A DNA stretch of 64,000 nt from NCBI GenBank assembly GCA_003151515.1, contig PLXS01000025.1, forward strand, positions 124,001-188,000. The letters are read 5' to 3'. This stretch comes from Opitutaceae bacterium. Lineage in GTDB: Bacteria > Verrucomicrobiota > Verrucomicrobiia > Opitutales > Opitutaceae. The notes below the pieces were generated by a model. It was not told the DNA's origin. It did not search any database and worked only from the letters and a program-made list of their open reading frames with translations. Positions 4,555-45,685 of the stretch are shown here, piece by piece (position 1 is the first letter of the stretch; each line of letters opens with the position of its first letter). A program made the position numbers and the translations under genes.

Positions 4555-4578
4555 GGTACGCAGTGTCGGCAATCCGCC

Positions 4579-6343: not shown

Positions 6344-6379
6344 TCCGGCCGCCTCCGCCACTCCGCCGCCCAAGGTCAT

Positions 6380-8779: not shown

Positions 8780-8851
8780 CAAGGCTTGGCGATGTCGGCA
8801 GGTCGCAGGCCTCGCGCGAAACCGGGCGGCGCATGCAAAGGGGGCCCATCG

Positions 8852-10120
8852 CTAGCTCAGGTCGCGGAACGACCCGAACTCCGGGTCGAAGATGCGCTTG
8901 TGCGTGCGCACGATCATGCCGTCGGTCAGGCCGGCCAGCCAGTCGCAGATCCGGCGCGCCTTCGCTCGCTTTCCCTTGGCCGCGTCTATGAGGGCGCCCA
9001 CGGCGGGCGGAAGGATGCGCACGACCCTTCTTCCCGTGTCGACGTAGTTGCGCCAGCACGACTCCCACAGGTCGAAGAGCACCTTGCGCGCCTTGTGCTC
9101 CATCTGCTGGAGCTGGGGGCTCTCGAAGATGATGTCGTTGGCCATCTTCTTGTAGAACTGCACCTGGCTCAGGGCATCCGGGGCGACGACGAGCTCGAAG
9201 CGGTACCGCTCGGTGCTCTTGGCCATGAAGTTGTCTCGCTCGCGCAGCCGGCAGGCCGTGATGAATGAGCCGATCCTGTCCGAGAAGATGTTCGGCAGGC
9301 GCTCGGCCCGTATCGCGTCCAGGAGCTCGTCCGCGAGGCGGGAGGCGACCGGCCCGTCGACATTGGAGTCCGCCCAGGCCTCGATCCTGTCGATCGTCAG
9401 GAAGCCCGCCTTGACCCCGTCGGTTATGTCGTTGACCGAGTATGCGGCGTCGTCCGCCCAGTCCATGATCTGGCACTCGACGCTCTTGAAGGCGTTCAGC
9501 GCCTCTCCGGTCCGCAGGCTCCGGGGCACCCTGGCCCCCCCGAACACGAAGGAGCGCACCCCCTCCTGGGTGTCGTAAAGGAAGTGGTTGCTCGGCCTCT
9601 TGGGGAACTCCCCGAAGAGGGTCTTGTACTTGAGGACGCCGTCGAGCAGGGCGCGCGTCGGCTGCATCCCGCGCACCCCCGCGCGCTCCTGGTACATGGT
9701 CTCGATCAGCAGGTGCACGGTCTGTGCGTTGCCCTCGAACCCCCCCCAGCCGAACATCAGCTCCTGGAGCGTGCGCTCGCCCGAGTGGCCGAAGGGCGGG
9801 TGCCCGAGGTCATGCGAGAGGCAGATCGCCTCCACCAGGTCCGGGTCGATGAAGAAGTCGTCGCGAAGCGGGCCCTTGAGCGTCCTGAGGAACTGGCAGA
9901 TCGAGCGGCCGATCTGCGCCACCTCCATCGAGTGCGTGAGCCTCGTGCGGTAGAAGTCGTACTCCCCGGAGAGGAAGACCTGGGTCTTCGACTGGAGCTT
10001 GCGGAACGCGTGCGCGTGGATGATGCGGTCGCGGTCGATCTGGAACGCGTTCCTGTAGTCGGTCTTGCGGGCGCCGCCGAAGGTCTCGCTGTCAAAGGGC
10101 CCGTAGAATCGGTTTGTCAT
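8852..10120 (-). CDS. dgt: Deoxyguanosinetriphosphate triphosphohydrolase (dGTPase-like)
   Basis: This 422-residue HD-superfamily enzyme hydrolyses dNTPs to nucleoside and triphosphate. The metal-binding set is intact: His63 in RTRLTHSMEVAQIGR, His103-Asp104 in SHDLGHPPFGHSGE, and a C-terminal Asp in MDWADDAAYSVND. The N-terminal RDRIIHAHAFRKLQSKTQVF block is also standard for the family. The ATG at 10118-10120 gives the family-typical N-terminus. It appears monocistronic and is divergent from tdh across 118 bp. Confidence 0.93.
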   Translation of the reverse strand: MTNRFYGPFDSETFGGARKTDYRNAFQIDRDRIIHAHAFRKLQSKTQVFLSGEYDFYRTRLTHSMEVAQIGRSICQFLRTLKGPLRDDFFIDPDLVEAICLSHDLGHPPFGHSGERTLQELMFGWGGFEGNAQTVHLLIETMYQERAGVRGMQPTRALLDGVLKYKTLFGEFPKRPSNHFLYDTQEGVRSFVFGGARVPRSLRTGEALNAFKSVECQIMDWADDAAYSVNDITDGVKAGFLTIDRIEAWADSNVDGPVASRLADELLDAIRAERLPNIFSDRIGSFITACRLRERDNFMAKSTERYRFELVVAPDALSQVQFYKKMANDIIFESPQLQQMEHKARKVLFDLWESCWRNYVDTGRRVVRILPPAVGALIDAAKGKRAKARRICDWLAGLTDGMIVRTHKRIFDPEFGSFRDLS

Positions 10121-10238: not shown

Positions 10239-11279
10239 ATGAGCTCCCGCATGATGAAAGCGCTCTCCAAGGAGAGACCCGGGGTGGGCCTGGACTTGGT
10301 GCAGGTCCCCGTGCCCGTCCCGGGCCCTAACGACGTCCTCATAAGGATCAGGAAGACGTCCATCTGCGGGACCGACGTGCACATCTACAACTGGGACGAC
10401 TGGGCGCAGAAGACGATCAAGACCCCGATGGTGATCGGCCACGAGTTCGTGGGCACCATCGAGGAGGTGGGCTCCGCTGTCCAGAGGTTCCAAAAGGGCG
10501 ATTTGGTCGACGGGGAGGGCCACATCGTCTGCGGCGTCTGCCGCAACTGCCTCGCCGGCCGCAGGCACCTGTGCAAGGACACGAAGGGCGTCGGCGTGAA
10601 CAGGCCGGGCGCCTTCGCCGAGTACCTCTGCATCCCCGCGTCGAACGCCGTGCCGGTCGACCCGGCGATTCCGCTCGACGTCCTGTCCTGCTTCGATCCC
10701 CTGGGCAACGCGACGCACACGACCCTGCAGTTCGACCTCGTGGGCGAGGACGTGCTGGTGACAGGCGCGGGCCCCATCGGGTGCATGGCCGCCGCGATCG
10801 CGAAGCACTGCGGCGCGAGGAAGGTCGTCGTCACCGACGTGAACCCGGCGCGCCTTGAGCTCGCCGCCAGGATGGGGGCGACGCGCGTCGTCGACGTCTC
10901 GAAGGAGCGCCTGCCGGACGTGCAGGCGCAGCTCGGCATGAAGGAGGGCTTCGACGTTGGCCTCGAGATGTCGGGCAACCCGAAGGCGCTCAACGACATG
11001 ATTGACAACATGGCGCACGGCGGCCGGATCGCCCTGCTCGGCATCATGCCCGCGGCGGCCGCCGTCGACTGGAACAAGGTCGTCTTCAACATGCTCACCA
11101 TCCGCGGCATCTACGGGCGCGAGATGTACGACACCTGGTACAAGATGACCGCCATGATCCAGAGCGGCCTCGACATTTCCCCCGTCATCACGCACCGGCT
11201 CCCCTTCGCCGAGTTCCAGCAGGGCTTCGATCTCATGCGCTCCGGCAAGAGCGGCAAGATCGTCCTGACCTGGAGCTAG
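10239..11279 (+). CDS. tdh: L-threonine 3-dehydrogenase
   Basis: A zinc-dependent medium-chain dehydrogenase of 346 residues. It oxidises L-threonine to 2-amino-3-ketobutyrate with NAD. Catalytic zinc ligands are seen at Cys43 (SICGTDVH) and His68-Glu69 (IGHEF). The structural zinc Cys cluster is [15 protein letters not shown] (Cys98, 101, 104, 112). The Rossmann glycine motif is [10 protein letters not shown]. Start choice is ambiguous: GTG 10233, ATG 10239 and ATG 10251/10254 are all in frame, and the last would give the family-typical MKALSK N-terminus. It is followed 38 bp later by kbl, whose product consumes the unstable ketobutyrate, so the pair forms the threonine-to-glycine route. Confidence 0.94.
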
Positions 11280-11317
11280 GCGCCGGCGCGCCCCCCCCTT
11301 TGATCCCAAAGAGAGCC

Positions 11318-12508
<1,191 letters not shown>

Positions 12509-12525
12509 GCGGTCTTTGGCCCCCA

Positions 12526-12948
12526 ATGGCGCGCGTGAAACCGAAGCCCACGGACTCCTCCCTGCGGCGCCTGGAGAGGGCCGCGCGGGGCGCGCTCGCC
12601 CACTCGTACTCGCCCTACTCCAAGTTCAGGGTCGCCGCGGCCGTCCTCGCCGGCTCGGGCAAGGTCTACTCGGGCTGCAACGTCGAGAACGCCTCCTACG
12701 GCCTGTGCAACTGCGCCGAGCGGACGGCCATATTCAGCGCGGTCGCGGCCGGCGAGAGGTCGATCCGGGCCGTCATGGTGTACACGCCGACCCCGCTGCC
12801 CACGGCCCCGTGCGGGGCGTGCCGCCAGGTGATAAACGAGTTCGGCCCCGACGCCCTGGTGATCTGCGTCTGCGACTCGAAGAACACGATCGAGACGACG
12901 CTCCCGTCGTTGCTGCCCGGCGCCTTCGGGCCGGGCGACCTCGCCTAG
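12526..12948 (+). CDS. cdd: Cytidine deaminase
   Basis: This 140-residue enzyme deaminates cytidine/deoxycytidine to uridine/deoxyuridine. The zinc site is complete: Cys63 and Glu65 in CNCAERTA, and Cys96/Cys99 in APCGACRQ. The substrate-binding CNVENASYG block is also present. It is the short homotetrameric type. It begins 17 bp after kbl, so it may share that transcript. Its stop overlaps the convergent hisS stop by 4 bp. Confidence 0.95.
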   Translation: MARVKPKPTDSSLRRLERAARGALAHSYSPYSKFRVAAAVLAGSGKVYSGCNVENASYGLCNCAERTAIFSAVAAGERSIRAVMVYTPTPLPTAPCGACRQVINEFGPDALVICVCDSKNTIETTLPSLLPGAFGPGDLA

Positions 12949-14261
12949 TGCGCCTCGAATAGGCCGCGCACGGCGTCGCCGACCCCGGCGGCCGGGACGT
13001 CCCTCTCGGAGCGCTCAGCCATGTCGCGCACCTTGACCATGCCTCGGGCGAGCTCCTCGGCGCCGTAGATGAGCGCGAGGCGCGCGCCCGAGTCCGCCGC
13101 CGCCTTGAACTGCTTTCCGAAGGCAAGCTCCCTCATGGGGTACTCGACCCGGTAGCCGAGCGCGCGCAGGCGGCGGATGTCCGCGAACGCGGCCCTGCGC
13201 TCCGCGGCGCTCCCGATCACGCAGTAGATGTCCGCGGCCTGCACGACCGCGGGAGAAAGTCCCCGCTCCTCAAGGAGAAGCGCGAACGTCATCTCGCCTA
13301 TCGCGAATCCGACCGCGGGAAGCGGCGTCCCCCCGAGCCTGCCCACGAGGTCGTCGTAGCGGCCTCCGCCGGCCAGCGCCCGCAGCTCGCCCTTGCGGTC
13401 GAACGCCTCGAAGACGAAGCCCGTGTAATAGGCAAGGCCGCGCACGACGCCCAGGTCCACCTGGACAAATCCGGCGAGCCCCATCGCCTCCAGGCCGCCC
13501 AGGAGCGTGCGCCACTGGGCCAGGCGCTGCGCCAGCTCGGCCGAGGCAGCGGCGGCCCCCAGGGCCGCCTCCAGCTGCGCGAACGAGCGGATGGACTGGA
13601 ACGCCAGCACCTTGGCCTTCAGGTCCGCGGGGATCGCCCCGAAGGCCTCCTCATAGGGCTTGAACGCGTCGTCGCCGCCCCGCTCGTGCTTGTCCACCGC
13701 GCCAAGCAGCGCGCGGATGCGCGGCTCATCGAGGCCGAGCGATCCCAGGTAGTGGAACCAGAGGTTGCGGTCGCTCAGCCGCACGAAAAAGTCCTTCTCC
13801 GTGAGCCCGAACACGCGCATGCACTCGACCAGAAGCGCGATGAGCTCGATCTCGGCCTCGGGCCCCGCCTCGCCGAAAATGTCCGCGTTGAACTGGTGGA
13901 AGCAGCGCCCCCGGCCCTTCTGCATGCGCTCGTAGCGGTAGAACTCCGCTATGCTGAACCACTTGATGGGCCGCTTGAGGGCGTTCGCCCGCGCGCCGAC
14001 CAGCCGGCACACGCTGGGCGTCATCTCCGGGCGCAGGGCGACCTCGCGCCCCCCCTTGTCGGCGAAGCTGAAGAGCTGGGCCTCTATCTCGTCGCCGGAC
14101 TTCGCCCGGTAGAGGTCCAGGGGCTCGAGGACCGGCGTGTCGTATTCAGCGAACCCGAAGGCCGCCGCGGTCTGCCGCCACAGGCGGAAGATGTGGGTGC
14201 GCTTTGCCAGGTCCTCTGGGTAAAAGTCGCGGAATCCCGGGAGGCTTTGGAACGTGGCCAT
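12945..14261 (-). CDS. hisS: Histidyl-tRNA synthetase
   Basis: This is a 438-residue class II synthetase. Motif 2 (RYERMQKGRGRCFHQFN), the histidine-specific LDLGVVRGLAYYTGFVFEAF-type HisA block and a C-terminal anticodon-binding domain are all recognisable. It attaches histidine to tRNA-His in the cytoplasm. The start ATG lies at 14259-14261. It lies 67 bp downstream of the HU/IHF gene on the same strand and may be read from the same promoter. No T-box-like leader is visible in the 67 bp between them. Confidence 0.95.
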   Translation of the reverse strand: MATFQSLPGFRDFYPEDLAKRTHIFRLWRQTAAAFGFAEYDTPVLEPLDLYRAKSGDEIEAQLFSFADKGGREVALRPEMTPSVCRLVGARANALKRPIKWFSIAEFYRYERMQKGRGRCFHQFNADIFGEAGPEAEIELIALLVECMRVFGLTEKDFFVRLSDRNLWFHYLGSLGLDEPRIRALLGAVDKHERGGDDAFKPYEEAFGAIPADLKAKVLAFQSIRSFAQLEAALGAAAASAELAQRLAQWRTLLGGLEAMGLAGFVQVDLGVVRGLAYYTGFVFEAFDRKGELRALAGGGRYDDLVGRLGGTPLPAVGFAIGEMTFALLLEERGLSPAVVQAADIYCVIGSAAERRAAFADIRRLRALGYRVEYPMRELAFGKQFKAAADSGARLALIYGAEELARGMVKVRDMAERSERDVPAAGVGDAVRGLFEAH

Positions 14262-14328
14262 CAGTGACGGACACGTTGAGAGTCGTCCATCGCGGGGCGA
14301 ACCTAAAGAGCTCCGGCGCCTGCGGGCT

Positions 14329-14640
14329 TCAGAGGAGCGTGCTGAGGTCGAGCTTCTTTAGCTGCTGCTTCAGTATCTTGCCGGCCTTGAACTTAACGAC
14401 GGCCCGCTGGGGAATGATGACCTCCGCCTCGGGCTTGTTAGGATTGCGGCCTACCCTCTGCTTGCGCACCTGGACCTCCAGAACGCCGAAGTTCCTCAAC
14501 TCGACGTTGCGCCCCTCTGAGAGCGCTTTCTGCACAATGTCGAGGGTCTGCTGGACCGTGTCGACAATCTGTTTCTGGGGAAAGCCGGCCTTCCGGTATA
14601 TCTCTAACACGATCTCGCGTTTTGTGAGGTTCGTGGACAT
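14329..14640 (-). CDS. HU/IHF-family DNA-bending protein
   Basis: A 103-residue histone-like protein with the DNABII fold: N-terminal helices (LTKREIVLEIY), the conserved ELRNFGVLEVQVRKQRVGRNPNKP strand-arm region with the Asn-Pro intercalating tip, and a basic C-terminal helix. The arm sequence (RNFG, VGRNPNKP) resembles IHF alpha more than HU. A Shine-Dalgarno-like AAAGGA lies upstream of the ATG. A good sigma-70 promoter precedes it. It probably acts in nucleoid structure, and as an IHF-like bender it could assist sigma-54 promoters, since rpoN is also in the window. Confidence 0.9.
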   Translation of the reverse strand: MSTNLTKREIVLEIYRKAGFPQKQIVDTVQQTLDIVQKALSEGRNVELRNFGVLEVQVRKQRVGRNPNKPEAEVIIPQRAVVKFKAGKILKQQLKKLDLSTLL

Positions 14641-14681
14641 GAATTGATCCTTTCGGTGTGAGCGTTACCTGAACGTTCTTA

Positions 14682-14710
14682 AATTATTAGTCTGGGATGA
14701 ATTGCGTCAA
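14682..14710 (-). promoter_or_regulatory. Sigma-70-type promoter of the HU/IHF gene
   Basis: Read on the minus strand, TTGACG (14710-14705) is followed by a 17-base spacer and ATAATT (14687-14682), an AT-rich island in GC-rich surroundings. It lies about 42 bp upstream of the HU/IHF start codon. This is the clearest housekeeping promoter I found in the window. Confidence 0.65.
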
Positions 14711-14729
14711 TACTTATCCTTGCTGAGCG

Positions 14730-15428
14730 ATGCCCGACCCAGCCTCAGTGAATTCGATGTTCGGCCGCATAGCGCACCGCTACGACCTGGCGAACAGGGT
14801 CCTGAGCGCGGGTATCGACATCCATTGGCGCACGCGCCTCGTCGGCGCCGTCGCGAAATCAGGCGCCCGGGAGGTCCTGGACTTGGCGACCGGCAGCGGC
14901 GATGTCGCCTTTGCGCTCGCGCGCGGCCTGCCCGCCGGAGCCCGGGTCGTGGGCATGGATTTCTGCGCCCCGATGCTCGAGGTGGCGGAGGCGAAGAGGA
15001 AGGGCCGCGCGGGCGCCGCCGCGCTCGTGGAGTTCCGCGCTGGCGACGGCCTCGCGATCCCCGCGCCGGCGTGCAGCTTCGACGCGGTGACGATCGCGTT
15101 CGGCCTGCGCAACATGGCCGACCGCCCGGCGTGCCTGGCGGAGATTCGGCGCGTCCTTCGGCCCGGCGGGGGCCTCTTCATCCTCGAGTTCTCGCAGCCG
15201 TGGCCCTGGGTGCGCCCGTTCTATTCGTTTTATCTCAGGCGCCTGGTGCCGCGCGTCGCCGGACTGCTCACGGGCGACCCCGACGCGTACAAGTACCTGG
15301 GCGACACGATAGGCGCCTTTCCCGGTCGCGACGCCCTCTCGGCCGAGATCCTCGCAGGCGGATTCTCCCAGGTCGGGGCGTTGGCCATGACCGCGGGCAT
15401 CGTCGCCCTTCACGCCGCGAGGCGCTAG
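14730..15428 (+). CDS. ubiE: Menaquinone/ubiquinone biosynthesis C-methyltransferase UbiE/MenG
   Basis: This is a 232-residue class I SAM methyltransferase. The N-terminal NSMFGRIAHRYDLANRVLS signature, SAM motif VLDLATGSGDVAFALA, and the DAVTIAFGLRNMADRPACL block are diagnostic of UbiE/MenG. It methylates demethylmenaquinone (or the ubiquinone precursor). Given ACIII downstream, which works with menaquinol in several phyla, menaquinone is the likelier product, but this is inference. The ATG follows the divergent HU promoter region by a few bases. Confidence 0.93.
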   Translation: MPDPASVNSMFGRIAHRYDLANRVLSAGIDIHWRTRLVGAVAKSGAREVLDLATGSGDVAFALARGLPAGARVVGMDFCAPMLEVAEAKRKGRAGAAALVEFRAGDGLAIPAPACSFDAVTIAFGLRNMADRPACLAEIRRVLRPGGGLFILEFSQPWPWVRPFYSFYLRRLVPRVAGLLTGDPDAYKYLGDTIGAFPGRDALSAEILAGGFSQVGALAMTAGIVALHAARR

Positions 15429-15444
15429 GGGCCCTGCCGGCGCG

Positions 15445-15765
15445 TCAGTTGAACGACTTGCCGCAGCCGCAGGTCGCCTTTGCGTTCGGGTTGCGGATCT
15501 CGAAGCCCTTGCCGTGCAGGCCGTCGTCAAAGTCGATGGTCGTTCCGTCCAGGTGCGCGAAGCTCTTCGGATCGACGACGATCGCCACGCCCTCGCTCTC
15601 GAACGAGGCGTCGTCGGACTTCGCCTCGTCGAAGGACATGCCGTACTGCATGCCCGAGCAGCCGCCGTTCTCGACGAGCAACCGAAGCCTCCCTGTGGCG
15701 GGAGCGTCGCCGGCGGACCTCATCGCGCGCACCTGCGCCGCAGCCTTTGGCGTGAGAACGATCAT
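15445..15765 (-). CDS. A-type iron-sulfur carrier (ErpA/IscA/HesB family)
   Basis: A 106-residue protein with the three conserved cysteines of A-type carriers: Cys36 in [14 protein letters not shown] and Cys99/Cys101 in the C-terminal TCGCGKSF. These proteins hand Fe-S clusters to target enzymes; this window encodes several Fe-S proteins (ActB, RfbH). The exact subtype (IscA, ErpA, SufA) cannot be assigned from sequence alone. It is convergent with ubiE, with 16 bp between them. Confidence 0.92.
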
Positions 15766-15806
15766 GGCGGCACGTTAGGTGCCTCCGGACGCCTGTCAAA
15801 CGGCGC

Positions 15807-16868
15807 ATGCAGCAGATTTCGCGCCGAATCGGAAATGATTCACTTGCAAGGCCCCAGGGCCGGGATTGGAATCGGCGCGTGGCCGCAGTCAAACAGCTGC
15901 TAAACGAGATCACCTACGAGATGGTCCGCACGATCGCCGAGGGCGGAATGGGCATCGTCTACGAGGCCAATCAGCTCGGGGCGGGCCAGTTCAGGAAGAC
16001 GGTGGCCGTTAAGCTCATCCGCGAGGAGTATTCCGCGATACCGGAGTTCCAGAAGAACTTCATCGGCGAGGCACGGCTGGTCGCGGACCTGATCCACACG
16101 AACATCGTGCAGACCTACCACCTGGGCACGACGGACGTCGGACAGTACTTCATGGTGATGGAGTACGTCGGGGGGCACAACGTGGAGCAGTTCCTGGAGA
16201 AGCACCGCCAGCTCGGGCGCCAGGTTCCGGTCGACCTCGCGGTGTTCATCGTCTCGCGCGTCGCCCGGGGCCTCGCCTACGCGCACCAGAAGCGCGACCG
16301 GGTCGGCAACCACCTCAACATCGTCCACCGCGACATCGGCCCGAAGAACATCATGATGGGCTACGAGGGCGACGTGAAGCTAACGGACTTCGGAATAGCG
16401 AAGGCCTTCAACCTCATGTACAACGAGGAGGGCAAGGTGATCGCCGGCAAGGACGAGTACCTGTCGCCCGAGCAGGCGAGCTACGCGGTGACGGACGCGC
16501 GGGCGGACCTGTTCCCCCTGGGGATCGTTCTGACGGAGATCCTCCTGCTAAAAAACATCTTCCGCAGCCCCGACCGCACGCAGTCGCGCCGAAACATCCT
16601 CTCGATGCCCATCCCCAGGTTCTCGAGCCTGCGGCCCGAGATCGACGAGCGGCTTGAGGCGATCATCCAGAAGTGCCTCAAGCGCGACCGAGACGCGCGC
16701 TATCAGTCGGCCGCCGATGTGCTCCACGAGCTGGAGGTCTACCTCTACAGCGGCGGCTACGGCCCAACCAATGAGAAGCTCGGGGCGTACATGCGCGCAC
16801 TTTTCGAAGTCAAGGAACCGAGAAACCCAGCGATACCCCCGCCGCCCCCGCCCGATCCCAACCCATGA
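15807..16868 (+). CDS. Serine/threonine protein kinase with atypical catalytic loop
   Basis: This is a 353-residue Hanks-type kinase with no transmembrane segment. Seen: a glycine loop ([11 protein letters not shown], 44-54), ATP lysine Lys69 (VAVKLI), alpha-C Glu88, catalytic VHRDIGPKN (His174-Asp176), DFG at 194-196 and a YLSPEQA activation segment end. The lysine two residues after the catalytic Asp (HRDxK) is Gly178 here. Such substitutions occur in some bacterial kinases (for example HRDxS types), so activity is still plausible. The C-terminus ends in a polyproline run. An alternative GTG start lies at 15879. rpoN begins 22 bp downstream, so the two are probably co-transcribed. Confidence 0.88.
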
Positions 16869-16890
16869 GGCCCGGCCCGCCCCAAAGCCC

Positions 16891-18387
16891 ATGAGCGCGG
16901 GAGGATTCAGTCAGGACCTAAGGCAGCGCCAGACGCAGTCGCTGGTGCTCGCCCCGCAGCTGCGCCAGTCGCTCAAGATCCTGCAGGTGGCCGCGCTCGA
17001 CCTGCGCTCCGTCATCCAGGAGGAGCTGCAGAGCAACCCGACGCTGGAGGAGCTTCCCATGGACGGAATGAGCATGGAGAAGGAGGAGCCCTCAAAGGCC
17101 GACGCGGACGCAACGGGCGACGACGGTTCGGCCGAGGCGCCGCACGAGGCGGCGGCCGAGCAGAAGCGCGACGAGATGGATTTCTCAAAGGAGTTCGAGA
17201 TCCTGGGGAAGATTGACGACGACTGGCGCGACTACATGGCGAACGCCGGCGGGTCGCAGCCCTTCACGGCGGACGACGCCGAGCGCCGGCAGCACTTCTT
17301 CGATTCGGTCGCGACCGAGACCTCGCTCCAGGAGCACTTGATGCGCCAGGCCGAGATGACGGACCTTCCCCCGGAGGCGATGGCGGCCATGAACCACCTC
17401 GTGGGCAGCCTGGACGACCGCGGCTTCCTCACCGTGAGCGCGCCCGACGTCGCCCTGCAGACGGGCCTGCCCCTGGCGGCGGTCCAGGAGGCCGTCGGCG
17501 CGCTCAAGTCCTTCGAGCCCCCTGGGATCGGCGCCGAGAACCTCGCCGAGTGCCTCCTGGCTCAGCTGGCCGCGAGGGGCAGGCGCGAATCCCTCGCCTC
17601 GAGGATCATCCGCCACTACTTCGAACTCCTGACCAGGCGCCGGATCCCGGAGCTCGCGCGCAAGCTGGGCGCCGCGTCGGACGACGTGCAGGGCGCGATC
17701 GAGGAGATCGGCAAGTTGGACCCCGCGCCGGGAAGGCGCTTCGCCGATGACCAGAACCGCGTCGTCGTGGCCGACGTGACTGTCGAGCGCGATGGCAGCG
17801 AGTGGAGGATCCACCTGAACAACGACTACATCCCGAGGCTGCGCATTTCCAGCACCTACCGGGACCTGATCGCCAAGGGAACGCTCTCCAAGGACGAGCG
17901 CGACTACCTTCGCGAGCGCATGCGCTCAGGCAAGTTCCTTATCGACTCGATCGAGCAGCGCCAGCGGACAATCGAGCGGATAACGCGCGAGATCCTCAAG
18001 GCCCAGGCCCCGTTCTTCGAGCACGGGGTCTCGCAGCTGAAGCCGCTTACGATGACCCAGATCGCGGAAGTCGTGGGCGTCCACGAGACGACCGTCAGCC
18101 GCGCCATCGCCAACAAGTACATCCGCACGCCCCACGGCGTCTTTGAGTTCAAGTACTTCTTCACCCCGGGCTACCAGAACGACAACGGCGCCTCGGTCTC
18201 CAACACGAGCGTCAAGGAGATGATCGCCGACATGGTTGCCGCGGAGGACAAGGCGTCGCCGTTCAGCGACCAGGAGCTGGTGGCGAAGCTCCAGGAGAAG
18301 GGCATCAATATCGCGAGGCGCACGGTCGCCAAGTACCGCGACGAGCTCGGCATCCTGCCGAGCAACCTGCGCCGCGACTACAAGTAG
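16891..18387 (+). CDS. rpoN: RNA polymerase sigma-54 factor
   Basis: This 498-residue protein has the three RpoN regions. The Gln/Leu-rich activator-interacting region I is at the N-terminus (QTQSLVLAPQLRQSLKILQ). An acidic linker (about residues 50-95) is followed by the core-binding and HTH regions (MTQIAEVVGVHETTVSRAI). The RpoN box (ARRTVAKYR, 475-483) is at the C-terminus. The ATG at 16891 is chosen because region I starts directly after it; an upstream in-frame extension overlaps the kinase gene and is not homologous-looking. It directs transcription from -24/-12 promoters with AAA+ activators, none of which is in the window. Its stop overlaps the convergent tsaD stop by 10 bp. Confidence 0.95.
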   Translation: MSAGGFSQDLRQRQTQSLVLAPQLRQSLKILQVAALDLRSVIQEELQSNPTLEELPMDGMSMEKEEPSKADADATGDDGSAEAPHEAAAEQKRDEMDFSKEFEILGKIDDDWRDYMANAGGSQPFTADDAERRQHFFDSVATETSLQEHLMRQAEMTDLPPEAMAAMNHLVGSLDDRGFLTVSAPDVALQTGLPLAAVQEAVGALKSFEPPGIGAENLAECLLAQLAARGRRESLASRIIRHYFELLTRRRIPELARKLGAASDDVQGAIEEIGKLDPAPGRRFADDQNRVVVADVTVERDGSEWRIHLNNDYIPRLRISSTYRDLIAKGTLSKDERDYLRERMRSGKFLIDSIEQRQRTIERITREILKAQAPFFEHGVSQLKPLTMTQIAEVVGVHETTVSRAIANKYIRTPHGVFEFKYFFTPGYQNDNGASVSNTSVKEMIADMVAAEDKASPFSDQELVAKLQEKGINIARRTVAKYRDELGILPSNLRRDYK

Positions 18388-34889: not shown

Positions 34890-35552
34890 CTACTTGACCT
34901 CGAGAAGCTCGGCCTCGGTCATCTCCTTGCGAGCGCCCACGGCCTTGCGAATGGCCGACACCTCGTCGGCCGTGATCGCCGGGGCCTTGTTGCCCCACTC
35001 CTGGCGCACGAAGGTGAGGACGGCGGCGATCTTCTCGTCGCTCCAGTTGTAGGCCGAGCCGGGCACCTGGCCGAAGACAGGCATCGCGGTGGCGCTGAAT
35101 TCCTTGCCCGCGACGTGGACCGGGCCCTTGAGGCCGTATAGGACGATGCGCACCACCCTGTCGGCGGGGCCGTTGGCCCACTCCGAGCCGGCGAGGGGCG
35201 GATAGATCCCGGGAAGGCCGAGGCCGCTCTCCTGGTGGCAGGTGATGCAGACCGCCTTGAACTGGGCCCTTCCCACGGCAAGCGGGTCGACCTTGGGCGC
35301 CATGTTCATGGACGGCTTCGCGTTCTCGTTGAACACGAGGGCGCTGTAGTGGCCCGTGTAGCGGTTCAGGTACGTGCCCGCGAAGAGGACGAGGCCGCTT
35401 AAGACGAACAGGATGCCGATCGGCAGCAGCCTGTAGCGTGCGCCGTCCTCGTGGTGCTGGCGCCCGAGCGCCCTCTCGTGCGCGTCGAGCAGGCCCTCGT
35501 CCGAGATCGCCGCCTGGTCGACGCCGGGATCGCGAAGGGGTTCCCCGCTCAC
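34890..35552 (-). CDS. Membrane-anchored monoheme cytochrome c of the ACIII operon
   Basis: This 220-residue protein has a cytosolic N-terminal ~43 residues, one membrane helix (about 44-62; LLPIGILFVLSGLVLFAG) and a periplasmic c-type heme domain with CITCH as heme site and AMPVFG as the likely distal Met. It sits last in the ACIII operon, overlapping the CcoO-like gene by 4 bp. It may take electrons from ActE or CcoO-like protein and pass them to an oxidase. It is not a CcoP homologue, as only one heme motif is present. Confidence 0.85.
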   Translation of the reverse strand: MSGEPLRDPGVDQAAISDEGLLDAHERALGRQHHEDGARYRLLPIGILFVLSGLVLFAGTYLNRYTGHYSALVFNENAKPSMNMAPKVDPLAVGRAQFKAVCITCHQESGLGLPGIYPPLAGSEWANGPADRVVRIVLYGLKGPVHVAGKEFSATAMPVFGQVPGSAYNWSDEKIAAVLTFVRQEWGNKAPAITADEVSAIRKAVGARKEMTEAELLEVK

Positions 35553-36202
35553 TTCGCACCCCCTCCCGCCTCGGGCTTTGCCGGCGGCAGCGGCACCGCC
35601 TCCGGGTAGTCGTAGGGCGTCTTCCCGTTGAGCAGGTACTTCACAAGGGAGATGGCGCGCTCCGTTGGGACGATCTCCCAGCCCGCCGGCGCCTCGAGGG
35701 CCCCGGTCAGCCTGAGTGCGTTGTCGGAGGGCTGCGCCCCGACACCCACCTGGCGCATCTCAAAGAGGAAGCGGTAGGGCGGCATGCCCTCGGCGCCGGC
35801 GTAGAGAAGCTTGAGGAGGTCGTCCTTGTCCGGTGCGGTCGGCTTGCGCTCCCCGAGGTTCATGAGGTCCGGCCCGATCCGGGAAGCCCCGAGCTGCGGC
35901 GCGGGCTGATAGATGTAGTCGCGGGCGACGCTCTGGCGCTCGCCCCAGCCGCGGGCCTGGTCGGAGCCCAGGCCCGGGCGGCGCACCTGCTGGGTGTGGC
36001 ACGAGGCGCAGCCCAAGTCCCTGTAGACGAGCTGTCCGCGCGCGGCCTCGCCCGGCATCCACTCGGGGAACGCGGTGCTCTGCGTGTCGTCGTAGAACGG
36101 GGCCAGCGCGCCCAGCTCGGCGTTCGAGCCGAGGACGATGGCGGCCCAGGACACGCCGAGGGCCGCGAGGATTCCCAGGAAGAATACGAAGTTGCTCTTC
36201 AC
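35549..36202 (-). CDS. CcoO-like membrane cytochrome c (cbb3 subunit II homologue)
   Basis: This 217-residue protein has an N-terminal membrane anchor (FVFFLGILAALGVSWAAIVLG) and one heme site, LGCASCHTQQVRRPGLG, in the FixO/CcoO context (usually CxxCHSQxxRP). The later TGPDL-like segment (IGPDLMNLGE) and the Met-bearing MPPYRFLFE correspond to CcoO features. The heme ligands therefore look intact, unlike those of the neighbouring CcoN homologue. The start is the GTG at 36202, overlapping the CcoN-like stop by 4 bp; a longer upstream frame overlaps that gene and is not credible. Confidence 0.85.
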   Translation of the reverse strand: MKSNFVFFLGILAALGVSWAAIVLGSNAELGALAPFYDDTQSTAFPEWMPGEAARGQLVYRDLGCASCHTQQVRRPGLGSDQARGWGERQSVARDYIYQPAPQLGASRIGPDLMNLGERKPTAPDKDDLLKLLYAGAEGMPPYRFLFEMRQVGVGAQPSDNALRLTGALEAPAGWEIVPTERAISLVKYLLNGKTPYDYPEAVPLPPAKPEAGGGAK

Positions 36203-37596
36203 GATGCGTGGGTCTCCGCGGCCGCGGGCGCCTCGAACGCGGCCGGCTTCGATAGGTTGAGGATCTCGCACGCCGTTGCGTAGAAGTTGACGAGGAGCGC
36301 GATGTTGCCCGCGAGCAGGATGCCGAGGGCCCCGGTGACGCCCAGAAGCCACGGCCGGGTCTCGCGCGTGATCTGCGCGAAGGGCACCTTGGCGTCCAAG
36401 AGATCGGGGATCTGCACCAACGAGGCGACGACCAGCGAGCCCACGAGGAGCACGACTCCCGCGAAGGTCAGCAGCAGGTGCGCCCGCACCAGCCTGCCAG
36501 AGAGCCAGGCCTTGCCCGTGATGCGCGGCACCGCGAAATAGATGCCGCCGAGGAAGACCGCGGTCGCGGCCCCGTAGAGCGCAAGCTGCCGCAGGGCCTC
36601 GTCAAAGTACGTGAACTCGGTCTTGACCGCGACGCCCAGGAACGAGGTGGCCGCGTCCGCGCCGGCGCCCAGCGCGTAGGCCGCGATCCCGAAGGCGACG
36701 AACTTCGCGGAGACGCCCGGCGCCGTCGCGGCGCCGCGCAGGTTCAGGACGACGACGATCACGTGGAACGAGAGAAGCGCGCTCGACACCACGGCCACGG
36801 CGGAGATCCAGGCGGGCACCGGCCCGCCCACCAGGTGGCGGCCGCCGGTGAGCCCGCCCACGAAGACAAGGCACCAGAAGCCCAGCGCCGCGAACTCGTA
36901 GGACGGGAGCGCCCTGCCGGTCGTCTTGGCGACTACGTAGTACGCAACCGAGAGGAACAGCGGGGCCAGCCACAGGGTCCACGCCCCTTGCGCGTACCAG
37001 CCGGCGGCGATCGCCTGGACCACGCCGCGCGGCGGAAGCGCGAAGAGGACGACGTGAGCCACCGAGAGAAGCCAGGGGAAGAGGAATAGGGCCGCGGCCG
37101 CATACCAGTGCGAGGCGAAGGAGACCCTCCTCAGGCGCCCGGACCACGCGAGGATGCCCGGGAGGGCCACGGCGGCGTACGAGAAGATCATCTCCAGCTG
37201 CACGTACCTGGGAAGCCCGAGCAGCGCGAAGCCCGTCGCGTCGCCCGTCGCGACGCCCGCCAGGGCGACCGCGACCCCGATGTTCCAGAAGGCCGTCCCG
37301 ATCAGGGCCCAGTTCTGGGCCCGCAGGGGCTCCCCGGCCAGCCGGCCGAGGACCCAGAGGGCGAGGCCCAGCCCGGCGTTCGCGAGCCAGCCGTAAACGA
37401 AGGAGGTCTCCGCGAGCGCGCTCACGCGCCCGTGGGTCAACAGCGGGCAGCCCGACAGGAAGACGGGCGTGTGCACCTGGACGGAGGCGATGATGCCGAG
37501 GACCCCGCTCACGACGAGCCACACGCTCCCCGCCAGAAGGAGCATGAGGATCGGCCAGCGCGACGCCGCGTCGTTGGGTGAGTGCTCGCTCGTCAT
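36199..37596 (-). CDS. CcoN-like (cbb3 subunit I) protein lacking heme and CuB ligands
   Basis: A 465-residue protein with about 12 membrane helices and clear colinearity with cbb3 oxidase subunit I: HGRVSAL, SHWYAAAA, WYAQGAW, SYEFAALGFW, GGRHLVGG and FTYFDEALRQLALYG line up with family segments. At the places where active oxidases have His, this protein has Ala62 (family GRLRPLH), Gln203 (family WYGH), Arg253 with only His254 left (family GPHH), and Leu335 and Gln337 (family GHVHAG). Low-spin heme b, heme b3 and CuB therefore cannot be bound in the normal way. It is probably a structural subunit or one with a new role. It overlaps the CcoO-like gene by 4 bp and follows the small membrane protein by 1 bp. 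Confidence 0.8.
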   Translation of the reverse strand: MTSEHSPNDAASRWPILMLLLAGSVWLVVSGVLGIIASVQVHTPVFLSGCPLLTHGRVSALAETSFVYGWLANAGLGLALWVLGRLAGEPLRAQNWALIGTAFWNIGVAVALAGVATGDATGFALLGLPRYVQLEMIFSYAAVALPGILAWSGRLRRVSFASHWYAAAALFLFPWLLSVAHVVLFALPPRGVVQAIAAGWYAQGAWTLWLAPLFLSVAYYVVAKTTGRALPSYEFAALGFWCLVFVGGLTGGRHLVGGPVPAWISAVAVVSSALLSFHVIVVVLNLRGAATAPGVSAKFVAFGIAAYALGAGADAATSFLGVAVKTEFTYFDEALRQLALYGAATAVFLGGIYFAVPRITGKAWLSGRLVRAHLLLTFAGVVLLVGSLVVASLVQIPDLLDAKVPFAQITRETRPWLLGVTGALGILLAGNIALLVNFYATACEILNLSKPAAFEAPAAAETHAS

Positions 37597-37597
37597 G

Positions 37598-37936
37598 TCA
37601 GTGCTTCGCGTTCTCCTGGACCACGAGCTCCATCGCGCGCCCGACCGGAAGCTGCACGATGCCGGCCTTCTGGTCGACCCAGGCGTAGGACACGACCTGC
37701 GTCGCCTGGGCCTTCCTCAGGTCGGCGAGCGCGGCCCTGCGCGCGGCCGGCGTCTGCTTCCAGGCCAGTTCCCTCGGCAGGTTGTCGAAGGCCTCGTTCT
37801 GGGGTGCCGGGGGGTGCCCGGGCACGTAGACGCGCGTCGTGATGGCCCAGAAGAGGCCGAGCAGGATGAATACGCCCGCCGTCGCCAGGAGCGAGACCGG
37901 CCGGGGCCTGGGGGCGGGCGCGGGCGCGTCACTCAT
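37598..37936 (-). CDS. Small single-span membrane protein of the ACIII operon
   Basis: This 112-residue protein has a Pro-rich N-terminus, one membrane helix (about 14-33; VSLLATAGVFILLGLFWA) and a periplasmic domain ending in YAWVDQKAGIVQLPVGRAMELVV. That last motif looks like a conserved element of small proteins in other ACIII or oxidase loci, recalled from general knowledge rather than searched. It overlaps actF by 8 bp. No cofactor motif is visible; it may be an assembly or accessory subunit. Confidence 0.7.
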   Translation of the reverse strand: MSDAPAPAPRPRPVSLLATAGVFILLGLFWAITTRVYVPGHPPAPQNEAFDNLPRELAWKQTPAARRAALADLRKAQATQVVSYAWVDQKAGIVQLPVGRAMELVVQENAKH

Positions 37937-39137
37937 GGTGGCTCAGGCACTCCCCTATCCTCGGGTCGCGGATCGGGATGATCTTGGTCTTGGGCAGGCT
38001 CCTCATGTAGGCCCAGACGCATATGCCGCCCACGCCCGCCACCGAGGTGGCCGACCAGAGGAGGTTGAGGGAGAGGAAGGGCTGCGGGTTGCCCTTCGCG
38101 TCCTGCAGCGCCGGCAGGATGTTGTAGCAGATGTCCACGAAGATGACGAAGAGGATCAGGTACGCTATCCAGCGGATCGCCGCGTGCGTCACCTTGAAGC
38201 GGTACGAGAGGAGCAAGAGGAACGGCAGCAGGAAGTTGCCGAAGACCAGGAACAGGCTCACGTACCACCAGTCGCCGTACTCGCGGATGTTGTACCAGAA
38301 GGTCTCCTCGGGCACGTTCGCGTTCCAGATGAGGAAGTACTGGGAGAACGAGATGTAGGCCCAGAAGACCGTGAAGGTGAGCATGAGCTGCCCGATCGCC
38401 CAGAGGTGGTCGGTCTTGAGTATCCCGCGGTAGTCGCCGCGCCCGTAGAGCCAGAGCATGATGATGACCCCGAGGGCCAGCGCCGCGCGCATGCAGTTCG
38501 CGAAGTACCAGACGCCGTACATGGTCGAGAACCAGTGGTACTCCAGGCTCTTGAACCAGTAGATCGCGGCGCCCGTGAGCGTGAGGGCGACGATCGGGAT
38601 GCCGAAGCCCGAGGTGAAGCCGTTCCGGCGGGTCCACTTGGCGTCCCCGTCCGCATCCTGGGCGAACGACGCGTGGCGCAGGCGCGCCGACACCCATATC
38701 CACAGGGCGAAGAAGCCGATCGAGAGTATCGTGAAGAGCGGCACGTTCAGGAAGGCCGACTTCTTCTCGTAGAGGAGGTCGGTGCGCACGGTGATCGCGC
38801 CGTGGACCTCATGCGCCGGGTTCATCCACGGCCAGACCAGGTCGCCCTTCCCGGCGTAGGAGCCGATGATGAGCGGCAGGAAGAGCAGCAGGAGCCACGG
38901 GAACGCGGCCGTGCCGTGCTCAAACTGCCGGCGCAGCGCCGTCGACCACGAGGCGTCGAAGATGTGGTGGATGAGGATCATCATCAGCATCCCGATGGCC
39001 GCCGCGGTCCAGAAGCCGATGCCCACGAGCCACGCCGTGGCGACCACGTGGGCGCCTGAGACGAGGATGCCCGCGGCCGTGACCGCCGTTGCGGCAAGGC
39101 CCACCGTGAGCGCCTGTGTTGCGGGGAATTTGCTCAT
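37929..39137 (-). CDS. actF: Alternative complex III subunit ActF (NrfD-like membrane protein)
   Basis: A 402-residue polytopic protein with about ten membrane helices. Family landmarks include a WPWMNPAHEVHG-like loop, FWAYISFSQYFLIWNANVPEET and the C-terminal helix before PRIGECLSHHE. It pairs with ActC as a second quinone-module-like subunit; in characterised ACIIIs ActC rather than ActF carries the quinol site. I start at the ATG at 39137, which overlaps actE by 4 bp; the frame's longer upstream extension overlaps actE. Confidence 0.9.
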   Translation of the reverse strand: MSKFPATQALTVGLAATAVTAAGILVSGAHVVATAWLVGIGFWTAAAIGMLMMILIHHIFDASWSTALRRQFEHGTAAFPWLLLLFLPLIIGSYAGKGDLVWPWMNPAHEVHGAITVRTDLLYEKKSAFLNVPLFTILSIGFFALWIWVSARLRHASFAQDADGDAKWTRRNGFTSGFGIPIVALTLTGAAIYWFKSLEYHWFSTMYGVWYFANCMRAALALGVIIMLWLYGRGDYRGILKTDHLWAIGQLMLTFTVFWAYISFSQYFLIWNANVPEETFWYNIREYGDWWYVSLFLVFGNFLLPFLLLLSYRFKVTHAAIRWIAYLILFVIFVDICYNILPALQDAKGNPQPFLSLNLLWSATSVAGVGGICVWAYMRSLPKTKIIPIRDPRIGECLSHHE

Positions 39138-39787
39138 TTGAGTCCGAGCTCCGCGCGGTGGTCCTCCGGTACGTCGGCCACCGTGCCCGTCTGCGCGAGC
39201 TGGAGCGCGCGCACGTAGGCGATCACGGCCCAGCGGTCCCGCGGCGCCAGCTTGTCGCCGTAGGGGTTCATCTGGCCCTTTCCGTTCGTGATCGTGTTGA
39301 AGATCTCCCCCTCGGCCATCTGGCGCAGGCGGTCGTCGTGGTAGGTGGGGACGGCCCCCATGCCGTACTTCTTGGTGATCCCGCCGCCGTCGCCGACGGC
39401 CCCGTGGCACGGCGAGCAGTAGATCGTGAAGCGCTCCCTGCCGCGCTCCATGAACTTCATGTCGAGCGTGAGCGCCGGCGGGAAGCCCCGGGCCCACGAG
39501 CCGTCATGGAGCTTGCCCCGGTAGAGGAAGTCGTCGCTCCTGACGCCCTGGCCCGCGGGGCCGAAGGAGGCGGGCACCGTGTTCGGGGGCGCGGGCCGGT
39601 CGGAGCGGCCGTCCGCGAAGAACGGGCTCTGCTGCTGCTGCGTGAGCTTCGGCTGGTACTTCATCCCGGGGAAGAGCCACTCGGGGAACACGTCCATCGG
39701 GGGCTTCGTGAACGTGCGGTTCCTAAGGCCCAGGATCGAGAACGTGAGCACCACAATGAAGAGGGTCGCTATGTAGGCGTTCCTCAT
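39134..39787 (-). CDS. actE: Alternative complex III subunit ActE (monoheme cytochrome c)
   Basis: This 217-residue protein has an N-terminal membrane or lipid-anchor helix (IATLFIVVLTFSIL), the ACIII-typical FPEWLFPGMKYQP segment, then a cytochrome c domain with CSPCH, a distal Met probably in GQMNPYGD, and a DRWAVIAYVRALQ C-terminal helix. ActE mediates electron exit from the ACIII heme chain. It begins 3 bp after actD and overlaps actF by 4 bp. Confidence 0.92.
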   Translation of the reverse strand: MRNAYIATLFIVVLTFSILGLRNRTFTKPPMDVFPEWLFPGMKYQPKLTQQQQSPFFADGRSDRPAPPNTVPASFGPAGQGVRSDDFLYRGKLHDGSWARGFPPALTLDMKFMERGRERFTIYCSPCHGAVGDGGGITKKYGMGAVPTYHDDRLRQMAEGEIFNTITNGKGQMNPYGDKLAPRDRWAVIAYVRALQLAQTGTVADVPEDHRAELGLK

Positions 39788-39790
39788 GTC

Positions 39791-40324
39791 CTAGGCCTCG
39801 ACCTCCTCGATGTCCGCGCCGCCGACCCTCTCCAGGAGGGCGCGCGTCGCCGCCTCGTCGAAGCGCGGGTCGGCACGCTCGATGACGATCAGGAAGCGGT
39901 TGTCCGTCGCCTTGCGGATGTTCGGGTAGTTGAGCACCGGGTGGTAGTGCATCGGCAGCCCGTTCAGGTAGAACATGCCTCCGATGGTCGCGAATGCCGT
40001 GAAGAGGATCGTCAGCTCGTACGAGATGGGGAACGCGAACAGGGGGCTGAAGAAGGGCTTCCCGCCCACGCTCAGGCGGTAATCGAACCCGTTCATGTAG
40101 AAAATCATGCACATTCCCGTGAAAAATCCCGTGACGCCCCCCGCGAGCGAGAAGCGCGGCACGCGCGAGCGGCCGAGGCCCATCGCCTGGTCGATGCCGT
40201 GGACGGGGAAGGGCGTGATGCAGTCCCACTTGCGGTAGCCCGCGTCGCGCACCTGCACGGCGGCCCTCATGAGGGCCCCCGTGCTGTCGAATGTGGCCAC
40301 CAGGCCGAAGGGTTTCTCAGCCAT
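39791..40324 (-). CDS. actD: Alternative complex III subunit ActD (DUF3341 family)
   Basis: A 177-residue protein with the DUF3341 N-terminal domain ([37 protein letters not shown]), two membrane helices in the middle (about 60-115), and a cytoplasmic C-terminal segment ([22 protein letters not shown]). It has no cofactor and stabilises the complex on the cytoplasmic side. It overlaps actC by 8 bp. Confidence 0.92.
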
Positions 40325-41759
40325 GGCGGTCCCCCCTGTGTTCGCCCGAGTGCGGGTCGGCCTGCGGCGTCACGGCCTTGAGCTCGGCGATGGCCATGAT
40401 CGGCAGGAAGCGTATGAAGAGAAGGAAGAGGACTGAGAAGACCCCGAATGTGCCGAAGAAGGTGAAGATCTCGACGACCGACGGGCTGTAGTAGCCCCAG
40501 CTGGTCGGCAGGAAATCGCGGGCGAGCGAGGTCGCGATGATGACGAACCTCTCGAACCACATGCCGACGTTGACGAAGAGCGCGAGGATCCAGACCAGCG
40601 TCGTGTTCTGGCGCACCGCCTTGAACCAGAAGAACTGCGGCGTGATGACGTTGCAGCTGATCATCAGGAAGTACGCCCACCAGTAGGGGCCGAAGGCGCG
40701 GTTGATGAACGTGAAGCCCTCGTAGGGGTTCGCGCCGTACCACGCGATGAAGAACTCCATCGCGTACGCGTAACCCACCATGGTGCCCGTCGCTAGGATG
40801 ATCTTGCACATGCAGTCGATGTGGTACTGCGTGATCAGGTCCTCGAGGTGGTAGACGGCGCGCAGCGGCAGGGCGAGCGTGAGCACCATGCCGAAGCCCG
40901 AGAAGATCGCGCCCGCGACGAAGTACGGCGGGAAGATGGTCGTGTGCCACCCGGGCAGCAGCGAGACCGCGAAGTCGAAGGAGACGATCGTGTGGACCGA
41001 GAGGACGAGCGGCGTCGATACTCCCGCGAGGATCAGGTACGCCATCTCGTAGTTGCTCCAATGCCGGCTGGAGCCGCGCCAGCCCATCGCGAACAGGCCG
41101 TAGAGCCGCGCCTTGAGGGTCTTGCCGACCGATGCGAAGCGGTCGCGCATGGTCGCGAGGTCCGGGATCATCCCGACGTACCAGAAGAGGACGGAGACCG
41201 TGCCGTACGTCGACACCGCGAAGACGTCCCACTCGAGCGGAGAGCGGTAGTTCTGCCAGATGTAGTTCGAGTTGGGCAGCGGGAAGAGGAACCAGGCGTA
41301 CCAGACGCGGCCCACGTGGAAGACCGGGAAGATGCCGGCGCAGACCACGGCGAAGATGGTCATCGCCTCGGCCGAGCGGTTGATCGAGGTGCGCCACTTC
41401 TGGCGCAGCAGGCAAAGGATGGCCGAGATGAGCGTCCCGGCGTGGCCGATGCCGATCCAGAAGACGAAGTTGACGATGTCCCAGGCCCAGTTGACCGGGC
41501 TCCTGTGGCCCCAGACGCCGACCCCGGTGGCTACCAGGTACGTGATCCCCGCCACCGTGAACGAGGCCACGAGGCACGCGCAGCCGAAGCACCACCACCA
41601 CCACACGGGCGTCTTCTCCTCGGCGATCCCGCAGATCTTCTCCGTTATCCAATTGAAGTCGTGGCCGTGCGCGACCAGCTGCGCGCGCGGCTTTACGGCC
41701 GGCCTTATCTCCTGGAGGATGGCCGGGGCGCCAGCGGTTTGTTCGGCTGCTTGCGACAT
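40317..41759 (-). CDS. actC: Alternative complex III subunit ActC (NrfD-like, quinol-oxidising)
   Basis: A 480-residue NrfD/PsrC-family membrane protein with about ten helices. Landmarks include [41 protein letters not shown] and [21 protein letters not shown]. In characterised ACIIIs this subunit holds the quinol site next to the ActB Fe-S clusters. It starts 3 bp after actB. Confidence 0.94.
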
Positions 41760-41762
41760 GGG

Positions 41763-45034
<3,272 letters not shown>

Positions 45035-45038
<4 letters not shown>

Positions 45039-45685
45039 CGATGGCAGCCCGAGCAGCTGACCGGGGGTTTGATGTTCCAGTCTTTCACGAAGGTGCGGGC
45101 CGCCTCGATGCCCTGCGTCGCGGCGATTGTTCCCGAATCAAGGTTGAACACGTCGGCCTTCTCCCTCACATGCAGCTCCGGGGCCCGGTGGCAGTCCAGG
45201 CAGAATCCCATGCTCATGGGCTTCACCTGGGTGACGACGTCCATCTCGCTCACCTTTCCGTGGCATTCGACGCATCCTATCCCCCGGTTCACGTGGATCG
45301 AGTGGTCAAAGTAGACGAAGCTCGGCATCACGTGAACGTGGACCCACGGCACCGGGTTGCCCGTCTGGTAGCTTTCGCGGATGACGGCCAGCGCGGGGCT
45401 CGCCGCCTTCAGCTGGTTGTGGCAGTTCATGCACGTCTGCGACGTTGGGATCGCGGCCCCGGCCGTGTCGATCGTGCTGTGGCAGTAGCGGCAGTCCAGG
45501 CCCAGCTCGCCGACGTGCTTCGCGTGGCTGTAGGGCACCGGCTGCATCGGCGCGTAGCCGACCCTCGTGTACTTCGGGGTCATGTAGTACTGCGCCGCGG
45601 CCGTCGCTATGCATCCCACGACGCACAGGTAGACGATGATCTGGACGGGAAGCTTGTTCGCCGACTTGGGAAACAGCTTAGCCAT
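45035..45685 (-). CDS. actA: Alternative complex III subunit ActA (pentaheme cytochrome c)
   Basis: This 216-residue protein has one N-terminal membrane helix (IIVYLCVVGCIATAAA) and five heme-binding motifs: CRYCH, CMNCH, CVECH, CLDCH and CSGCH. Pentaheme ActA collects electrons from the ActB clusters and hands them to ActE. It is the first gene of the ten-gene operon, and the promoter should lie in the 349 bp upstream. Confidence 0.94.

Follow-up and report, generated by a model that had tools for sequence, protein, structure and literature searches.

We describe here a CcoN-like protein of an Opitutaceae bacterium that is encoded inside an alternative complex III (ACIII) operon and has lost the residues that would hold the metal cofactors of an oxidase. 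The gene lies on the reverse strand at 36199-37596 of the 64,000-nucleotide stretch that we analysed (assembly GCA_003151515.1, contig PLXS01000025.1, positions 124,001-188,000; called the window below, and all positions refer to it unless another locus is named). Its frame encodes 465 amino acids without an internal stop, and the coordinates, strand and frame given in the original prediction were correct. Five of the six His ligands and the active-site Tyr are absent, and, judged from its sequence, the protein is a non-catalytic member of the heme-copper oxidase fold for which canonical O2 reduction is close to certainly impossible. The original prediction pictured a single odd protein; we found instead a recurrent state of a verrucomicrobial ACIII-linked CcoN family in which intact members survive. 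We lean, if only slightly, towards the view that an oxidase core was turned repeatedly into a cofactor-free structural subunit (at least 18 changes on an ACIII tree), within one class and inside the ACIII operon in all 86 mapped lost loci. The outcome would be an ACIII supercomplex that contains a dead heme-copper fold and two additional cytochromes c, and the ACIII-linked cbb3 of verrucomicrobial methanotrophs and Opitutaceae would then be no oxidase in these lineages.

Six His residues are the feature by which heme-copper oxidases are recognised. We read their columns from a pairwise HMMER alignment to the P. stutzeri CcoN and from multiple alignments with six-His relatives, and both placed A62 (codon 37411-37413) in the low-spin heme b His column of the GRLRPLH motif in transmembrane helix (TM) 2 and Q203 (36988-36990) in the column of the CuB His of WYGH in TM6. 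R253 occupies the column of the first His of the CuB pair, of which the second, H254, alone remains (36835-36840), and L335 and Q337, with R336 between them (36586-36594), stand in both His columns of GHVHAG in TM10, those of heme b3 and low-spin heme b. Each of these substitutions had been named, in its proper column, in the original prediction. The multiple alignment revealed in addition that the helix-VII Tyr of cbb3 is lost, with G247 (36856-36858) in its column in TM7. For the heme ligands of TM2 and TM10 and for the Tyr number we use the customary assignments. The CuB ligand numbering of P. stutzeri follows PMC3578206.

Sequence matches and the predicted fold place the window protein among the subunit I proteins of the heme-copper oxidase superfamily (PF00115), with A62, Q203, R253, H254, L335 and Q337 where that superfamily has its six His, and the His ligands of heme b, heme b3 and FeB of the nitric oxide reductases (cNOR/qNOR) were not found in it. 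It differs from the canonical cbb3 CcoN (a C-type heme-copper oxidase; PDB 3mk7, P. stutzeri) in its missing His and Tyr as well as in its score, which was 61.1 bits with the ccoN equivalog against a cut-off of 583.15; four intact relatives, at 219-250 bits, were likewise below the cut-off. The intact relatives L027, L030, L032 and L034 are full-length homologues with 33-34% identity to the window protein and have all six His and the Tyr. Because the protein fails in its ligands but has the fold, the operon and the partners of the family, it should not be filed as a cbb3 oxidase.

The possibility that other His residues (H181, H278 or H373) fall at the ligand sites, named beforehand as what would overturn the prediction, was ruled out by their placement in the structure model and by the residues of intact sequences. 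The model places H181 in TM5, H278 in TM8 and H373 in TM11, and the ligand columns in TM2, TM6, TM7 and TM10. Among 66 aligned six-His rows (duplicates included), position 181 is Gln in 47 and His is never among the commonest residues there, position 278 is Pro in all 66, and position 373 is His in 64, beside a full ligand set. Misalignment was rejected as well, as the motif columns were free of gaps in the window's clade and against the six-His relatives, with gaps in 2 of 253 rows of the whole set. As far as aligned sequences can tell, the ligand loss is real, recurrent and no artefact.

To follow the ligand state over the family, we used an alignment of twelve relatives as a search profile. 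With a threshold of E 1e-40, it had matches in 261 of the 372 genomes searched in the order and in 180 of 237 in the class; because canonical cbb3 subunits also pass this threshold, both counts are upper bounds. At E 1e-70 it matched in 21 of 115 genomes sampled from the phylum. From the order and class matches 140 loci, picked for spread over families and not at random, were fetched; 54 have six His, one has five and 85 have at most three. When the six columns were scored in 253 distinct sequences (identical cores removed; nine loci with canonical cbb3 or partial matches left out; L323 and L324 included, which come from another class and possibly belong to a neighbouring CcoN subfamily), six His were found in 61, all with the Tyr, five in one, four in none and three or fewer in 191. 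This distribution suggests that damage to the site is followed by the loss of almost all the ligands. The sole five-His sequence, L210, reads HRHHHH/Y: Arg replaces the CuB His of WYGH, and the rest of the protein is of the intact type. It is either a first step of loss or a sequencing error.

Intact members occur in the same ACIII operon (e.g., L118, L178 and L204), and in the window's own family nine other genomes (L118-L127) keep the intact form. Five of the 140 loci (L119, L140, L188, L206 and L214) have no Act genes in the fetched stretch and all of them are intact; four have CcoP-like and some have CcoO-like genes, so that they represent a free-standing form of the oxidase. A set of 80 loci referred to below as the named loci consists of the best 80 of 391 found, and for this reason all of them are near the window and none is intact.

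The partners of the protein were retained. As the original prediction had it, the window gene is a CcoN homologue without a usable ligand set inside an ACIII operon, and many related genomes carry the same form: ActF lies upstream of CcoN in all 86 non-intact loci among the 140. Among the intact loci, CcoO was found in 52 of 54 and CcoP in 50 of 54; among the non-intact ones, each of the two was found in 85 of 86. All copies have at least one CXXCH. On the strength of gene order and retention, the lost CcoN may be associated with ACIII in a physical complex.

The lost form of CcoN is under purifying selection. Its median ratio of nonsynonymous to synonymous substitution (dN/dS) was 0.127 (108 pairs) versus 0.145 for the intact form (23 pairs), near the values of CcoO (0.100) and CcoP (0.086) in the same loci; these ratios are simple Nei-Gojobori counts, and the 133 pairs are non-independent, a few coming from one genome fetched twice. 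A pseudogene, which the original prediction had already discounted, and an assembly artefact were ruled out by these ratios, by the open frames and by the many independent genomes. Among 115 positions that are at least 95% conserved in the intact form (duplicates included), the lost form preserves 40 at 85% identity or more and has largely lost 38, the latter including five of the six His, the Tyr, His287, His327 and His431.

The number of losses was estimated as the minimum number of state changes on two trees. It was 5 on a CcoN tree from which the seven trait columns had been removed, and 22 on a tree of ActC, ActD, ActE and ActF, into which CcoN does not enter, or 18 when only branches with a Shimodaira-Hasegawa-like approximate likelihood ratio (SH-aLRT) of at least 99 were used; shuffled labels gave about 44 and 39 changes. 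Rooted on the canonical cbb3 of the window's genome, the CcoN tree has intact first branches (L140 and L188). Most lost sequences form one clade on it, which may reflect long-branch attraction or inheritance.

Highly similar operons can carry either an intact or a lost copy, which contradicts a single ancient loss. For instance, L216 (intact) and L226 (lost) are 96% identical in ActC and 90% in ActF, 67% in CcoO and 53% in CcoN, whereas L210 and L216, both intact-type in CcoN apart from one Arg, are 91, 78, 68 and 80% identical in the same order. We also compared CcoN with CcoO in all pairs with an ActC identity of at least 80%: CcoN was the more conserved of the two in 97% of the 97 intact pairs, versus 9% of 247 lost and 2% of 250 mixed pairs. 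This contrast points to a constraint lifted mainly from CcoN, with some room left for gene replacement inside the operon. Sister operons such as L216 and L226 constitute a natural experiment in which the active site was lost and the scaffold is still selected.

On balance, we consider it probable that the window protein was once a catalytic core and now serves CcoO and CcoP on ACIII as a membrane scaffold, with the electrons passing to another oxidase. The ancestral verrucomicrobial ACIII operon would have carried a complete cbb3-like oxygen reductase (CcoN, CcoO and CcoP) directly after ActF. In many lineages, the window's included, CcoN would then have lost its ligands for heme b, heme b3 and CuB as well as the Tyr, but would have kept its fold, its place in the operon and its heme-c partners and remained under selection. 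The dead CcoN may serve as a membrane frame that holds the single-heme CcoO and CcoP close to the ACIII heme wire; electrons would thereby run from menaquinol through ActB, ActA and ActE to CcoO and CcoP and on to a separate oxidase, presumably of the aa3 type next door in some lineages and encoded elsewhere in the window's genome. The operon would thus encode a quinol:cytochrome c machine that has its own output cytochromes built in, and another oxidase would carry out the oxygen chemistry.

The window's genome, for which an intact oxidase had been proposed as a check, encodes an aa3-type subunit I on contig C5 (CtaD 703 bits, cut-off 671), a canonical cbb3 on C30 (ccoN 632 bits, cut-off 583) and also cytochrome bd. 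A further COX1 protein was found in all 37 genomes with a residue-checked lost copy, and of 39 non-intact loci from other orders, 14 have an aa3 motif gene within the stretch that was fetched. In G046 (99% complete) an intact ACIII-linked CcoN is the sole COX1 protein and a search for cytochrome bd in that genome found none, so the ACIII-linked CcoN is the only terminal oxidase seen there.

Several observations weigh against a retired scaffold. In the window's order none of 47 non-intact loci and one of 37 intact loci had the aa3 motif close to the operon, so that adjacency to the presumed acceptor is not general; nor does an adjacent aa3 gene explain the loss, because intact loci have such a gene too. 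The two trees disagree (5 changes versus 22), a discrepancy that could be explained by long-branch attraction among the fast lost sequences or by gene replacement inside the operon, and CcoO is somewhat faster relative to ActF in lost pairs (1.31 versus 0.80). Finally, the near-invariance of Q203, G247, R253 and H278 among near relatives exceeds the needs of a plain scaffold. Over the 80 named loci Q203 is found in 76, G247 in 75, R253 in 79, H254 in 71 and Q337 in 69, and H278, whose column is Pro in intact members, and H373 are at least 90% conserved in the alignment behind the structure model, built from 52 of these loci. Conservation at 203 and 253 was taken from these two sets, since a clade set chosen by the same residues would be circular and was left unused.

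Such conservation would also fit a new function in the emptied pocket, in which the cluster of Q203, R253, H254 and Q337 forms a proton, ion or quinone path coupled to ACIII. Y219 and N285, too, have been retained, both where the ligands are lost and where they are intact. We regard this as unlikely, because other lost clades carry different residues at the six columns (ANSRRW, HSQKFL, FGASVF, ADAHQT and others) with no shared site, which argues against one shared new catalytic role; nothing in our analysis supported the specific proton or quinone function that the original prediction had offered. Among the window's near relatives, the conserved pocket leaves a little room for an added role. 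The same prediction had proposed a structural or regulatory subunit, and of these the structural role is the best-supported reading. It is doubtful that the dead CcoN tunes the assembly or activity of a canonical cbb3 or aa3 core by pairing or competing with it: the window's genome does encode both kinds of core, but G403, a methanotroph-type genome, has a dead CcoN and no ccoN type among its other five COX1 proteins, and, with its heme-c partners and its order of genes, the operon looks more like an electron-transfer module. It is very unlikely that a cofactor is still bound through other ligands and makes the subunit redox-active in an unknown way. The conserved H254, H278 and H373 would be the candidates, but they lie in TM7, TM8 and TM11, intact members have H373 beside all six ligands and Pro at 278, and over the whole family only 99 of 192 non-intact sequences still have H254. 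Gene decay in progress, with a pseudogene briefly kept by its operon position, would account for the longer CcoN-tree branches of lost lineages and for CcoN diverging faster than CcoO there, but is largely refuted by the low dN/dS, by the 40 conserved positions and by stops that are true gene ends in eight references.

The retired-scaffold reading bears on published accounts of the same taxa. According to the review PMC8498564, the ACIII genes of verrucomicrobial methanotrophs lie directly beside a cbb3-type oxidase, and a C-type oxidase occurs with ACIII only in these methanotrophs and Opitutaceae; the genome paper PMC6688271 reports the same co-location and links it to high O2 affinity. The window's operon shares these taxa and the position after ACIII, but the oxidase was published as cbb3, whereas in the window's lineage and in ten methanotroph-type genomes subunit I is without the ligand set. 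From its residues, the C-type core that neighbours ACIII is predicted to have no metal site in the window's Opitutaceae lineage or in the methanotroph-type genomes; the statement of the review can hold for the nine genomes of the window's family with the intact form. Genes of this kind have been described as cbb3 and read as high-affinity microaerobic respiration (PMC6688271). If the core is dead, such readings would be wrong for many Verrucomicrobia, probably including cultured methanotrophs, and the ACIII supercomplex would have an architecture for which we found no description. No ligand-less heme-copper subunit was described in the titles and abstract openings of the open-licence papers that our searches listed, which is weak evidence of absence.

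In the ACIII-caa3/aa3 supercomplexes of Rhodothermus marinus and Flavobacterium johnsoniae (PMC5928083) the ACIII genes are likewise followed by oxidase genes, and direct electron transfer from ACIII to the oxidase is reported for caa3. The linked oxidase is functional there, but in the window the linked core appears dead and the extra cytochrome c pair remains. Another verrucomicrobial isolate is described in PMC13274419 with ActABCDEF followed by a caa3 oxidase and with cbb3 apart, so that the window's arrangement is not universal in the phylum.

The methanotroph-type genomes form family f35, and pmoA was found in all 12 that were searched; together with two ba3-like copies in G403 it suggests that they are methanotrophs. 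One genome (G397) has no CcoN match and one (G523) a partial match. Ten complete CcoN-like proteins lack the ligands: their six columns read ADAHQ(V/I/T) or SESHFV. An eleventh protein is partial and, as far as it can be read, ligand-less too. ActF is directly upstream of CcoN in nine of the ten loci and in the partial one. In L291 (G419; 11222-18144) about 7 kb lie between ActF and the small protein with CcoN, CcoO and CcoP, indicating that the CcoN-O-P module can be split from ACIII. L289, L290 and L292 have the order ActA to ActF, small protein, CcoN, CcoO, CcoP and aa3 subunit I, with a CuA-type subunit II further on; the best NCBIfam matches of subunits I and II in L289 are CtaD and CoxB, both below the equivalog cut-off. 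The other five COX1 proteins of G403 are the CtaD of the ACIII locus, a second CtaD, two weak CtaD/SoxB-like proteins that are probably ba3, and one without an NCBIfam match at 1e-10. In G437, the search for cytochrome bd subunit I gave two short matches side by side (C1:1393761-1394304), as a broken gene would.

The window gene is part of a chain of overlapping or nearly touching genes, all on the reverse strand, with actABCDEF in order at 37929-45685. Family searches identified ActA (45035-45685; five CXXCH by motif), ActB (41763-45038), with molybdopterin-oxidoreductase-like and 4Fe-4S parts, the NrfD-like ActC (40317-41759), ActD (39791-40324; Pfam ActD 208 bits) and the mono-heme cytochrome c ActE (39134-39787); for ActF (37929-39137) the start at 39137 was set by the overlap with ActE and by homology. 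Between ActF and CcoN lies a small membrane protein of 112 amino acids (37598-37936) with one apparent TM helix read from the sequence; it had no Pfam or NCBIfam match and recurs at this place in many relatives. CcoN is followed by a CcoO-like mono-heme cytochrome c (35549-36202; CXXCH; FixO 38.7 bits, above the cut-off), whose presumed GTG start overlaps the CcoN stop by 4 bases, and by a CcoP-like one (34890-35552; CXXCH; Cytochrom_C 36.5 bits). These two are diverged forms of the cbb3 partners, both under the ccoO/ccoP equivalog cut-offs.

Two variant clusters were also seen. A second ligand-less CcoN, 62% identical and with C R R H Q Q at the six columns, occurs at L260 (G000 C41:1-19900; 2922-9421) in a reduced ACIII-like cluster of ActA, a single frame apparently holding ActC and ActD, ActE, the small protein, CcoN, CcoO and CcoP. 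This cluster is without ActB and ActF, and none of the 47 named relatives with more than 6 kb upstream lacks either gene. In L237 (6142-6927; an f30 genome), the usual place of the small protein, ahead of the ligand-less CcoN, is taken by an extra CcoP-like cytochrome.
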